This document shows, in pieces, positions 16,230-25,384 of a stretch of 33,801 nucleotides of DNA; positions within the stretch are counted from its first letter, which is position 1, and every line of letters begins with the position of its first letter. The stretch covers positions 1-33,801 of the forward strand of contig JACOVQ010000007.1 of NCBI GenBank assembly GCA_016177225.1, written 5' to 3'. Source of the stretch: Candidatus Zambryskiibacteriota bacterium. Its GTDB lineage: Bacteria > Patescibacteriota > Minisyncoccia > Phycocordibacterales > Zambryskibacteraceae. A program made the translations under genes and the position numbers. Below the pieces are notes generated by a model. That model did no database searches. It worked only from the letters and a program-made list of their open reading frames with translations, and was not told where the DNA came from.

Positions 16230-16275
16230 TGTAAACGTACGTTTTAAATAAAATTAAATAGTTTTTTTGTTCTTT

Positions 16276-17193
16276 ATGTCAGCAAGACATCTTTCAAGGT
16301 CAATAGTTCTACAAACTCTTTTCGAATGGGATTTTTCCGACTCCGGCAAAGCCAAGCCCGATACGCGCCAACTTTTAGAGAAAAATATCGCCGAGTTTTC
16401 TCCCGGCTCGAATGACAAGCTCTTTATGGAGACTCTTTTGAAGCGCGTACTGGAGAAGAAGCGAGACCTCGATATTATCATAGAGAAAGCGGCTCCGGAT
16501 TGGCCGATAGATAAAATTGCGGTAGTAGACCGCAATATTTTACGTATCGGCCTTTGCGAACTCCTTTTTGCCGACCGCAATGAAGTGCCGCCGAAGGTGG
16601 CCATCAATGAAGCAATAGAGCTTGCCAAAAATTTCGGCGGAGAGACTTCCGGGCGTTTCGTCAACGGTGTTTTAGGCGCGGTGTACAAAGAACTCGGCGA
16701 ACCGGGCAAAAATGATACTTCCAAGCCTCGCAAGAAATACGGCAATGTGCCGCTTGACAAACTGCCGGTGGAGAGACTTGCCGGCGCTGTGGTATATGCC
16801 AAGCACAAAGGAAATATATACCTTGCTCTTGTGCACGACGTCTTTGGCCACTGGACGCTTTCTAAAGGCAAGCTTGAAGGCACGGAGAGCGAACAAGATG
16901 GCTTGACTCGGGAAGCGCAAGAAGAGCTTGGTATTCCGGTTAAAGTCCTAGAAAAGCTGGGAGAGAATTCTTACTCGACGTATCACCCGGAGAAGGGCAA
17001 GCTTGTGAAGCATGTGGCGTATTATTTGGCCGAAGCGCCATTTATAGACTTGACCTTGGAGAAGAAAGAAGAACAGGGTGGGCTTGATGATGTGCGCTGG
17101 TTTAAATTGGCCGACATACTTGACCTGAACTTTTATGATGATATTCTGCCCGTCGTGACTAAGGCTATTACTAAACTGGCCGAAGGCAAATAG
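16276..17193 (+). CDS. nusB: NusB-NUDIX fusion protein
   Basis: N-terminal NusB (VLQTLFEWDF...IDKIAVVDRNILRIGLCELLF...VAINEAIELAKNFGGETSGRFVNGVLG) continuous with a NUDIX domain (WTLSKGKLEGTESEQDGLTREAQEELGI). Confidence 0.9.
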   Translation: MSARHLSRSIVLQTLFEWDFSDSGKAKPDTRQLLEKNIAEFSPGSNDKLFMETLLKRVLEKKRDLDIIIEKAAPDWPIDKIAVVDRNILRIGLCELLFADRNEVPPKVAINEAIELAKNFGGETSGRFVNGVLGAVYKELGEPGKNDTSKPRKKYGNVPLDKLPVERLAGAVVYAKHKGNIYLALVHDVFGHWTLSKGKLEGTESEQDGLTREAQEELGIPVKVLEKLGENSYSTYHPEKGKLVKHVAYYLAEAPFIDLTLEKKEEQGGLDDVRWFKLADILDLNFYDDILPVVTKAITKLAEGK

Positions 17194-17194
17194 A

Positions 17195-17884
17195 ATGGAT
17201 TTTAGTAAATTTGAAGAAAGCGCGGGAATAAATTTCAAAGACAAAAACCTATTAAAACAGGCTTTTACTCATCGTTCGTATATCAACGAAAACCGCACTC
17301 TTGCTCTGGAACACAATGAACGCCTGGAATTTTTGGGTGATGCAGTGCTCGAGCTTGTCATTACGGACCACCTTTTTGGAAGGATGAAAAATGCCAGCGA
17401 AGGAGAATTGACTTCTCTCCGCTCCGCTTTAGTAAACGCTGATACTTGCTCTCGCGTAGCACAGACTCTCGGAGTCAATGATTATCTGCTTCTGTCTAAG
17501 GGCGAAGCCAAGGATACCGGCCGAGCGCGGCAATATATTCTCGCCAACACTCTGGAAGCCGTTATCGGCGCTATTTACATTGACCAAGGATACGGAGTCG
17601 CGAAAGATTTTATACTCAAAAATTTTCTTGCCATCACGGAGGAAATTCTTAAAGAAGGCGCTTGGATAGATTCGAAGTCTCTTTTTCAGGAAAAAGCTCA
17701 AGAGATTATCGGCACAACTCCTTTGTATAAAACTCTTAAAGAATCCGGTCCGGACCACGACAAACATTTCATCGTCGGAGTGTATGTCGGAAAGGAACTA
17801 TACGCCGAAGGCGAAGGTAAATCCAAACAAGACGCTGAACAAGAGGCCGCCAAGAATGCACTGGAAACTCAAGGCTGGAAGTAA
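17195..17884 (+). CDS. rnc: Ribonuclease III
   Basis: ERLEFLGDAVLELVITDHLF; C-terminal dsRBD. Confidence 0.96.
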   Translation: MDFSKFEESAGINFKDKNLLKQAFTHRSYINENRTLALEHNERLEFLGDAVLELVITDHLFGRMKNASEGELTSLRSALVNADTCSRVAQTLGVNDYLLLSKGEAKDTGRARQYILANTLEAVIGAIYIDQGYGVAKDFILKNFLAITEEILKEGAWIDSKSLFQEKAQEIIGTTPLYKTLKESGPDHDKHFIVGVYVGKELYAEGEGKSKQDAEQEAAKNALETQGWK

Positions 17885-17885
17885 T

Positions 17886-19661
17886 ATGTATCTGAAGTCC
17901 ATAGAACTCTCGGGATTCAAGTCTTTCGCCAAAAAGAATGGTTTTGAATTTAATTCTCCCATTTCAGCTATTGTCGGGCCGAACGGTTCCGGCAAGTCCA
18001 ATGTAGCCGAAGCGTTCCGGTTTGTTTTAGGTGAACAATCTATCAAGAGCATGCGTGGCAAGCGCGGCGAAGACCTCATCTGGAATGGAGCGGCGAGCGA
18101 GCCGCGCGCCAACCGCGCTTCGGTTAAAGTAATTTTCGATAATTCCCGAAAAGTTTTTTCTAATGTTGATTTCTCCGAAGTAACGATTGAGAGAGTCGTT
18201 CACAGAGATGGTCTTAACGAGTATTTAATCAACGGCTCGCAAGTCAGGCTTAAAGATGTTTTGGAACTTCTTGCGGGCGCTCATATTGGCATATCCAGCC
18301 ATCACATCATCTCTCAAGGCGAAGCGGATAAAATTTTATCCGCTTTACCTAAAGACAGGAAGAGTATAGTCGAAGACGCTCTAGGCTTGAAAATTTATCA
18401 ATACAAACGGCTGGAATCCGAACGCAAGCTCCAGAAGACTTTTGAGAACATCGGCCAAGTTGAAGCCTTGCGCAAAGAGCTTGCCCCGCATCTAAAGTTT
18501 CTTCAAAGACAAACTGAGAAGTTGACGAAAACGGAGAGTTTGCGAGAAGAGCTGATTGCTGTTTCTAAAGAATACTTTCAGCATAAAACGCCTGCCTCGC
18601 CTGAACTTGCCAAATTAGACGGCATTATTATGGCTGAAGAAGGACTCATAGAAAGGGAGAAAAAACTGGCGCTCTCAGACGAGCATAAAACGGTGCGGCT
18701 TAAAGAAGTGGAAGGCCTGTATCAAGAGGTCAGCAAACTTAACGAAGTAGGATTAATTATAAAAAGAATTGGTGAGTTCATACGAGAGAGAAAGCATGAC
18801 GGCCATTCTGAGAGTGTTGCCGAAGCTGAAGCAAGGATAGAAAAGTTAAAGAAAGAACGAGAGAAACTTGAGGAAGCGGAATTTAAGCGCGAATTAGTTG
18901 AAGTAGAGCGCTTGGTTGGGAAGCTCTCATGGGATAGAGGAAAACTACTGGACGAAACTTGGGATAAACAGGAAGAACGCAGACGTACTCTAGAGAGATT
19001 AAAGATGCGGCTTGAAGATTCTGACATCTCCGGCTCGGGAGAAATTCAAAAAGAATACCGAGAAACTTCCGAGCGAGACGCTTTCTTGGAGCGAGAACTT
19101 TCTGACCTCGACAAATCCGCTAAGTCGCTCGAAGACATTATAAAAGATCTGGAAAGACGTTTAGCGGTCGAGTTTAATACTGGCTTGGAGAAAATTAATA
19201 AAGAATTCGGCAAAATGTTTGCCACGATGTTTGGCGGGGGAGAAGCGGAATTTATTTTAACCAAAGAATCTGCAGAGTCGGAAGGAGACGAAGAGGTAAG
19301 TGTGGAAGAAGGATTGGATATAAAAGTAAGTCTGCCGAAGAAGAAAATCAAATCTCTCATGATGCTTTCTGGCGGGGAAAGAGCGTTAACATCTATCGCA
19401 CTCATTTTTGCTATTTCTCAAGTTAATCCGCCGCCGTTTATCATTCTTGATGAGACAGATGCCGCGCTTGATGAATCTAATTCCAAAAAATATGGAGACT
19501 TGGTGGAAATTCTCTCCAAACATTCTCAACTCATCTTAATTACTCACAACCGCGAGACCATGAGCCGCGCCGGCATTATTTACGGCGTTACTATGGGTTC
19601 AAGCGGTGTCTCCAAACTCCTTTCTATCTCATTCGACCAAGCAGTCGAAGTGGCTAAATAA
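17886..19661 (+). CDS. smc: SMC-family chromosome segregation ATPase, strongly shortened
   Basis: Walker A GPNGSGKSN; QGEADKIL; signature LSGGERALTSIALIFAI; Walker B FIILDETDAALDESN; follows rnc; about 591 aa. Confidence 0.92.
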   Translation: MYLKSIELSGFKSFAKKNGFEFNSPISAIVGPNGSGKSNVAEAFRFVLGEQSIKSMRGKRGEDLIWNGAASEPRANRASVKVIFDNSRKVFSNVDFSEVTIERVVHRDGLNEYLINGSQVRLKDVLELLAGAHIGISSHHIISQGEADKILSALPKDRKSIVEDALGLKIYQYKRLESERKLQKTFENIGQVEALRKELAPHLKFLQRQTEKLTKTESLREELIAVSKEYFQHKTPASPELAKLDGIIMAEEGLIEREKKLALSDEHKTVRLKEVEGLYQEVSKLNEVGLIIKRIGEFIRERKHDGHSESVAEAEARIEKLKKEREKLEEAEFKRELVEVERLVGKLSWDRGKLLDETWDKQEERRRTLERLKMRLEDSDISGSGEIQKEYRETSERDAFLERELSDLDKSAKSLEDIIKDLERRLAVEFNTGLEKINKEFGKMFATMFGGGEAEFILTKESAESEGDEEVSVEEGLDIKVSLPKKKIKSLMMLSGGERALTSIALIFAISQVNPPPFIILDETDAALDESNSKKYGDLVEILSKHSQLILITHNRETMSRAGIIYGVTMGSSGVSKLLSISFDQAVEVAK

Positions 19662-21831: not shown

Positions 21832-22257
21832 TCAAGTTGTTTGTGCTTGTTTCCGCGCGAGAAACTCGCGCCCCTTGCCGACATCCGTGTTGACCGGCAC
21901 GTTCTGCTCGCAGAGCGGACAAGTTACTTCGTCCTACGCGTCGAGCTTCACGTTCACGAGTGATGTGAGTTTCGGAACATCGGCCACATCTTGTGTTGTG
22001 ATTCCTCCGCGATTGCAGAGAACGCCGAGACCGATGACGTTACCACCGATTGCTGGCGCGATTACCACTTCCACTTTGTCGTCCACAAACCGCTTGGCGA
22101 TTGCTTGACAGAGGCGAGACGTCTCCGCAGTGTGCGGGTAAACCGCATCTTTATTGACGTATACCGTGCCGTGTTTGCCGGACGTGTAAACAATGTGACT
22201 GTCGGCGATGACCGCTCCGACCTTGCCGAGGACTTGCAGAACTTCTTGCTCGTTCAT
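21832..22257 (-). pseudogene. pyrE: Orotate phosphoribosyltransferase remnant (internal deletion and in-frame TAG)
   Basis: MNEQEVLQVLGKVGAVIADSHIVYTSGKHGTVYVNKDAVYP...VVIAPAIGGNVIGLGVLCNRGG...LVNVKLDA*DEVTCPLCEQNVPVNTDVGKGREFLARKQAQTT*; the PRPP loop between PAIGG and NVIGLGV is absent; TAG at 21934-21936. Confidence 0.8.
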
Positions 22258-23884: not shown

Positions 23885-25384
23885 TTATTTTATTACTTTT
23901 GTAATTACTTCCAATGTATCTCCCGGGGCGATTTCAAATTTTGATTCTATAAGAGCGCCGAACTCCTCTCCTTCGTTAGCACTTGAAGTCGCAACCCTTC
24001 CTTTTTGAAGCTCTTTTACTTTGCCGCGCCCGATTTCTGATTCGCGCCTGATAATTTTAATTTCTGTGTCTTGCCGAAATGTACCGGAGAGCACTTTTCC
24101 CCCTATAACCTGTTTATTTTTGGCGGTGCTAAATATTTTTAAGACTTTTATTGAACATTCGATTTGTTCGGTTTCAACTCTCGGCTCTTTTTCAGCTAAA
24201 AGTTCCTGAATTTTATCTGTCAACTCGTAAATAATGTTAAAAGTTAAAATAGCGATACCGGAGCGCTCCGCAAGATTTGCCGCTTGCGAATCAACTTTCG
24301 TATTGAAGCCGATGATATAAGTGTCTGGAGCGGTAAGAGCAGATTTAACATCGTTTTCATTGATGGCGCCGACGCCGGAGGAAATAATTTTCGGCGTAAT
24401 TTTCTCGCGGGAAATTTTATTAAGCTCATTTGACACCACTTCTAAACTTCCCGCCGTATCTGTTTTAAGTACTATCGGCAGCGCAACCACTCCTTCGCTC
24501 TCCAAGGTCTTGCTCCCTAAGGTCGAACCTTGGGAATCAGTACCTAAGGTTCGACCTTTCTCTGCGAAGGATTCTGCGTACGTGAGCGCGTCCTCTTTTT
24601 TTAAAAACGTCTTAAATTCCGCTCCAATCATGGGCATTTTATCCCACCCAATGATCTGCACCGGGCTTGAGAAACTTAATTCTTCAACCGTGTTACCTTC
24701 AGTGTCTAACAAAAATCTGATTGGAGCAATAGTTCCGGAAGAAGCCGCGAAAAGACCTTGTTTAACGGTACCTTCTTGAATTATTCCTACCGCCGTAATG
24801 CCACGCTTGGGGTCGAGCCTCGATTCAATAATCACTCCCGAACCCAAAACATCTCTCTCGGCAGTTTTACCCTCAAATTCTGACAAAAGCCCAATCATGT
24901 CGAGCAAATCATCTACTCCCTGCCCGGTTACCGCGGATACCTCGACAACAGAAATATTACCGCCATATCCTTCCACATACACTTCGTTCTCGGCGAGACT
25001 TTGTTTGACTCGTCCTATATCGGCGTTGGTTTTGTCCACTTTGGTAATTGCGACCAGATAAGGAAGATTGCATTCTTTAATATATTTAATAACCTCAACC
25101 GTCTGAGGTCTCACTCCGTCTTCGGCGGAGACTATCAATATCGCAATATCAGCGACACTGGCACAGCGAGTACGAATTGAGGTAAACGCTTCGTGTCCCG
25201 GTGTGTCGATAAATGTAATGTGTGTTCCATTGGTACAAGTGATTTCATACACACTTGGATGTTGAGTAATACCTCCTGCTTCCTTTTCTACGATATTAGT
25301 TTTGCGAATGTAGTCTAACAGACTCGACTTGCCGTGGTCGATATGTCCAAGCATTGCTACTACTGGTGGGCGTAATTCAGCCAT
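23885..25384 (-). CDS. infB: Translation initiation factor IF-2, N-terminally minimal form
   Basis: VVAMLGHIDHGKSSLLDYIR...AGGITQH; FIDTPGHEAFTSIR; 499 aa, starts essentially at the G domain. Confidence 0.95.
   Translation of the reverse strand: MAELRPPVVAMLGHIDHGKSSLLDYIRKTNIVEKEAGGITQHPSVYEITCTNGTHITFIDTPGHEAFTSIRTRCASVADIAILIVSAEDGVRPQTVEVIKYIKECNLPYLVAITKVDKTNADIGRVKQSLAENEVYVEGYGGNISVVEVSAVTGQGVDDLLDMIGLLSEFEGKTAERDVLGSGVIIESRLDPKRGITAVGIIQEGTVKQGLFAASSGTIAPIRFLLDTEGNTVEELSFSSPVQIIGWDKMPMIGAEFKTFLKKEDALTYAESFAEKGRTLGTDSQGSTLGSKTLESEGVVALPIVLKTDTAGSLEVVSNELNKISREKITPKIISSGVGAINENDVKSALTAPDTYIIGFNTKVDSQAANLAERSGIAILTFNIIYELTDKIQELLAEKEPRVETEQIECSIKVLKIFSTAKNKQVIGGKVLSGTFRQDTEIKIIRRESEIGRGKVKELQKGRVATSSANEGEEFGALIESKFEIAPGDTLEVITKVIK

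Follow-up and report, generated by a model that had tools for sequence, protein, structure and literature searches.

We consider an SMC protein of only 591 aa that is encoded in the window, by which we mean the whole stretch of 33,801 nucleotides that was analysed. It is the sole SMC detected in this Patescibacterium, and it probably works as a condensin together with ScpA and ScpB, with an apical helical hairpin in the place of the hinge. The hinge is usually regarded as a defining and essential part of an SMC, and long arms as important for its action on DNA. If our reading is true, the conserved requirement of an SMC would be dimerisation at the tip rather than the fold of the hinge or the DNA-binding surface that it offers, and a large bacterial lineage would run SMC-ScpAB hinge-free, on arms that can be as short as about 100 residues and, in some natural versions, with a hook. 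The small hinge-less SMCs would then be proteins for direct tests of SMC motor models.

The smc gene occupies positions 17886..19661 (stop codon included, + strand), as given by the ORF listing, the orthologue matches and the Pfam/NCBIfam models, and the N-terminus of its 591-aa product reads MYLKSIELSGFKSF. The ATG at 17886, directly after the rnc stop codon (17882-17884), is the likely start. An alternative frame from the ATG at 17784 would start within rnc, while the orthologue matches begin at 17886. Directly upstream is rnc (RNase III, 17195..17884, +), as in canonical rnc-smc loci, preceded by a conserved neighbour, a NusB-Nudix fusion gene (16267..17193, +). The earlier note had stated that smc follows rnc as in canonical loci, and this is borne out: the gene upstream is indeed rnc, and 19 of the 20 relatives examined keep the order NusB-Nudix, rnc, smc. 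The fusion itself, NusB joined to a Nudix hydrolase beside rnc, is found order-wide, and 19 of 20 relatives align with it over about 300 aa. Elsewhere in the window, a PyrE-like ORF on the reverse strand (21934-22257) adjoins an OMP decarboxylase-like ORF and looks short at only 107 aa, with no obvious continuation in the other frames; a translation initiation factor IF-2-like ORF (23885-25384, reverse strand, 499 aa) has an apparently short N-terminus.

The first question is "does this short ORF encode a genuine SMC?" The ABC-type ATPase head is complete. Its N-terminal half (aa 1-168, 17886..18389, +) contains the Walker A motif GPNGSGKSN (17976-18002, +) and the Q-loop QGEADK (18315-18332, +), and its C-terminal half (aa 425-591, 19158..19658, +) contains the LSGGE signature as LSGGERALTS (19365-19394, +) and the Walker B motif ILDETDAALDESN with the catalytic Glu (19443-19481, +); the halves are delimited by AlphaFold and the motifs, and the motifs are read in the translation. 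The description of complete N- and C-heads in an SMC of about 591 aa, made earlier from the DNA alone, thus stands, with every head motif located. Pfam assigns SMC_N with E=3.8e-64, and the best NCBIfam model by far is TIGR02168 (507 bits, under its 567-bit cut-off); the RecN model reaches 34 bits against a cut-off of 408 and so gives no membership. The heads are nearest to SMC in both sequence and structure, and it is confirmed that the ORF is a genuine SMC with intact heads, the only one detected in the genome. The genome is 455 kb in 15 contigs and 95.6% complete, and a profile search of it found no second SMC or hinge-bearing protein; a second full-length SMC was named in the earlier note as a finding that could overturn its reading. 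The one other PF02463 match in the genome, below the family cut-off on contig C12, was rejected as a second SMC because it falls in an ABC-transporter-like ORF.

The partners of a condensin are also found. As for the presence of ScpA and ScpB, a check that had been proposed for this genome, scpA and scpB lie side by side (L174:6473-7759). Among 60 genomes of the order, scpA is found in 56 and scpB in 56. In the phylum sample, SMC and ScpA occur together in 67 genomes, SMC only in 2, ScpA only in 7 (several of which are incomplete genomes) and neither in 116 (Fisher p=7e-41; the genomes are related, and the p-value overstates their independence). The condensin assignment is based mainly on this linkage of SMC with ScpA and on the intact ATPase motifs. 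Alternatively, the protein could have left chromosome organisation for a different task, for example Rad50/SbcC-like repair. PF02463 also covers RecN and RecF, the genome has no other member of this family above the cut-off, and a zinc hook is present in some relatives, all of which would fit such a move; the head profile, however, is that of an SMC (507 bits for TIGR02168, only 64 for the best Rad50 model), the rnc-smc synteny is kept, and the presence of the protein is coupled with that of ScpA. We regard a change of role as quite improbable. Three genomes of the order depart from the usual set: in G042 (97% complete) SMC, ScpA and ScpB are all undetected and the whole condensin may have been lost, and in G054 and G055 scpA and scpB are found and the SMC head is not found by profile, owing to a missing contig or a very diverged SMC.

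We turn our attention to the region between the heads. The window protein (L159) has no match to SMC_hinge (PF06470) in the Pfam search, an HMM search that the earlier note had suggested; the AlphaFold model contains no hinge, and the CxxC zinc hook is absent from this copy. The stretch of roughly 250 aa that the note had given for this region corresponds to about residues 169-424. Its picture of the stretch is correct in that there is neither a globular hinge nor a CxxC, and needs amending in that the middle is not featureless, since it contains a helical hairpin at the apex in which hydrophobic positions are conserved. With no hinge by HMM or structure model, and no hook, we accept that a different dimerisation mode is needed. 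A hinge might still be present and have diverged beyond HMM detection, as could be expected from the fast evolution in these lineages, and the hinge-less forms of 850-1070 aa could conceal a domain. Against this, among the short sequences only the hinged L139 is matched significantly by a custom hinge HMM built from 48 hinged SMCs, the 1000-1070-aa hinge-less forms are not matched either, and the hinge-less middle is poorer in Gly+Pro (a median of 8 vs 14 in the richest 100-residue segment, with overlapping ranges). In the window copy, moreover, the arm helices are only about 50 aa apart, too little room for a hinge, which takes up 116 Pfam positions. A hidden hinge is already largely refuted for this copy, and we hold it to be highly improbable.

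The missing hinge is not particular to this protein. SMC_hinge is found in 0 of the 397 order genomes searched (first in 0 of 60), with 10 of 14 control genomes positive and the same models matching the hinged controls. In the phylum sample, SMC is present in 69 of 192 genomes and SMC_hinge above the cut-off in 5, all of them SMC-bearing and from two families only; the genomes searched are kin, so these counts are not independent events. The genome collection is that of the Patescibacteria/CPR, including Kaiserbacteria, Lloydbacteria, Ryanbacteria, Azambacteria, Moranbacteria, Uhrbacteria and others. For the order, and for most genomes of the phylum that carry an SMC, the hinge-less form is the standard one. 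What had first been taken for a one-off oddity is, as far as the absence of the hinge is concerned, real, and it is a lineage-wide trait of which the window copy is the extreme. The lengths of the hinge-less SMCs range from 591 to 1071 aa (median 744.5, n=92, including L145, a near-duplicate of another sequence), and the window copy is the shortest. The sister genomes, for which a length comparison had been recommended, have same-genus SMCs of about 700-740 aa in those examined, except for one of 601 aa (G013).

In the AlphaFold model of the window SMC (mean pLDDT 82), the head is normal and an antiparallel coiled-coil arm with a head-proximal joint is predicted. The N-terminal arm helix (aa 169-263, 18390..18674, +) is broken at aa 234-238 and appears as helices 169-233 and 239-263. 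The C-terminal arm (aa 311-424, 18816..19157, +) has SMC-joint-like breaks at 345-358 and 379-383, with helices at 311-344, 359-378 and 384-449; both arms are delimited by the model and the alignment of the relatives. The PDB entry that matches the model best is 5XEI, which contains the head, coiled coil and joint of a Pyrococcus SMC, and the B. subtilis joint segment as crystallised comprises residues 188-253 with 922-1011 (PMC5526789). Combining these two, the head and the joint seem to be kept and nearly everything beyond them seems to be gone.

What distinguishes the window copy from its lineage is that its two arm helices have become shorter still, and by matching amounts. When compared with the relatives of 702-706 aa, 49 residues are absent from the N-arm, next to the break at aa 234-238, and about 47 from the C-arm, and the joint loop is also about seven residues shorter. 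This leaves arms of about 15 nm, or roughly 95-110 residues. That both antiparallel helices lost matching lengths fits selection on a paired coil and is unexpected from an assembly collapse. The two gaps relative to most proteins of the same genus might nevertheless be put down to such a collapse or to an in-frame deletion artefact; this would require two separate in-frame gaps of matched size, one per arm. The junctions of both gaps are identical in the 601-aa orthologue G013, which comes from a second species of the genus, was assembled independently and is only 76% identical, so that an artefact is extremely unlikely. A mosaic origin of the short arm was also considered, the arm-apex region being 74% identical to that of G013 and 42-59% to those of other genus members. 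The head sequences do not reject the window protein and G013 as one clade (AU p=0.10); one shared deletion therefore suffices, and recombination is not claimed.

What could hold two such short arms together? The apex (aa 262-310, 18669..18815, +), delimited by AlphaFold, conservation and the motif scan, is the candidate hinge replacement. It contains short helices at 272-282 and 289-304, placed at low model confidence (pLDDT block means 52-70). A 741-aa relative (L064) is built alike, but its arm is longer and its hairpin more distinct (328-346 and 351-370, pLDDT about 74-78), and an apical helical hairpin of about 50 aa is present in both models. The apex of the order follows roughly the pattern VxLxEVExL...IxxAxxxxDIxxIKxxLxxIxxLLxxFI, with the other positions varying; the hydrophobic positions that stand out are V270, V275, L278, I295 and F298 in the window numbering. 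A stronger conservation of the apex than of the arms was considered and rejected: its mean conservation is lower, with only a few hydrophobic positions standing out, and in the window protein it averages less conserved than the rest. The apex HMM is weakly significant outside its training set, and the argument is therefore built on position tests instead. When 53 hinge-less SMCs that did not serve for training (some of which are close kin of the order) are scanned with a 29-residue apical motif trained within the order, the nine best matches are all located at 0.47-0.49 of the coil, and five of these nine exceed every reversed-sequence and hinged control score. In the same scan the motif is undetectable in most of the more distant hinge-less SMCs, so a shared apical element is claimed for part of the phylum only. 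As modelled, the helical hairpin is a candidate replacement dimeriser of the window SMC.

The best natural evidence for the apex as the site of dimerisation is a hook swap in one genus (g67) within one family of the order. Three of its genomes (G220, G317 and G325) have SMCs with a CPxCG motif of the Rad50 hook type at the apex (RCPMCGSVIKE, RCPLCGSVIKK and RCPLCGSEIKE in L202-L204), where their congeners carry the helical element. The G317 and G325 proteins are each 71% identical to that of G220 across the whole protein. Judging from the motif, the three SMCs would bind zinc, and they would represent a natural SMC/zinc-hook chimera, the counterpart of a functional one engineered in B. subtilis. 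In that organism, replacing the Smc hinge with the zinc hook of P. furiosus Rad50 gives normal growth in rich medium (PMC5344682), so there it is the tip dimeriser, and not the hinge fold, that matters.

Putting these pieces together, a mechanism can be proposed. The ABC-type heads would bind and hydrolyse ATP and the kleisin ScpA would bridge them, as the intact motifs and the co-occurrence suggest. What would be retained is the head with the joint and the coiled coil next to the head, and the globular hinge would have given way to the small apical helical hairpin, which may link the tips of two protomers, probably in a four-helix bundle. The matched deletions in both antiparallel helices would have cut the arm distal to the joint still further in the window species and one relative, and the resulting complex would be a rod or ring that has very short arms and dimerises by something other than a hinge. 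It is also conceivable that there is no stable apical dimeriser, and that ATP-engaged heads bridged by ScpA/ScpB form only a clamp of the RecF or ABC type, not a ring. The very short arm would suit a clamp, as would the shortness of this copy's apex, its weak average conservation and its low model confidence. Across the order, however, the apex keeps its hydrophobic positions, a known dimeriser (the zinc hook) substitutes for the hairpin in three relatives, and the matched arm deletions argue for the preservation of a paired functional rod. We judge the clamp unlikely, while granting it some real weight, and keep the hairpin-dimerised condensin as the preferred reading.

How did the hinge-less form arise? 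In a head tree of 67 rows, a single clade holds the hinged Patescibacteria (Magasanikbacteria and relatives) and is nested within the hinge-less SMCs; its hinged sequences are L138-L141 and L077. Parsimony gives two changes of the hinge on this tree, and without a regain at least about five losses. We lean, by a little, toward the view that most SMC-keeping Patescibacteria swapped the hinge for an apical helical element and that one genus then exchanged this for a Rad50-type hook. This would make a natural series of dimerisers on a working SMC-ScpAB, with arms as short as the roughly 15 nm of the window copy, the hinge having disappeared either in at least about five separate losses or in a single one followed by a regain.

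Finally, we compare the window SMC with known systems. It resembles bacterial Smc-ScpAB (B. subtilis Smc; TIGR02168, PF02463) in the head motifs, the joint, the rnc-smc order and a single SMC with scpA-scpB in the genome, and differs from B. subtilis Smc in lacking PF06470, in arms of about 95-110 instead of 344 residues and in a length of 591 instead of 1186 aa. Like Rad50/SbcC, it has heads and a coiled coil with no globular hinge, and three relatives have the CPxCG hook; unlike them, it has an SMC head sequence, no hook in the window copy itself and co-occurrence with ScpA. An earlier report of hinge-less SMCs (Sussfeld et al. 2025, PMC12153180) concerns marine environmental ORFs that were assigned to Actinobacteria. 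These marine Actinomycetes proteins likewise have SMC heads, no hinge and no CxxC zinc hook, and what differs here, compared by description, is the occurrence in Patescibacteria, the genome context, the ScpAB linkage, the apical hairpin and the relatives with a hook. For Patescibacteria, no paper on hinge-less SMCs was found in the open-access literature searched (most subscription journals and preprints lie outside this search). The closest designed parallels are the B. subtilis hook chimera and Mini-Smc (Burmann et al. 2017, PMC5344682), which share a non-hinge dimeriser and shortened arms. Prokaryotic SMC arm lengths are reported to cluster at 238, 341 and 515 residues, and engineered B. 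subtilis Smc arms work near full length (321-344 residues) and again at 253-267 (PMC5344682). The shortest functional arms in that work, 253 residues, are man-made, whereas those of the window SMC are natural and much shorter; being far below the working engineered lengths, they count against the preferred reading and imply that the function of the arm must differ here or be relaxed.
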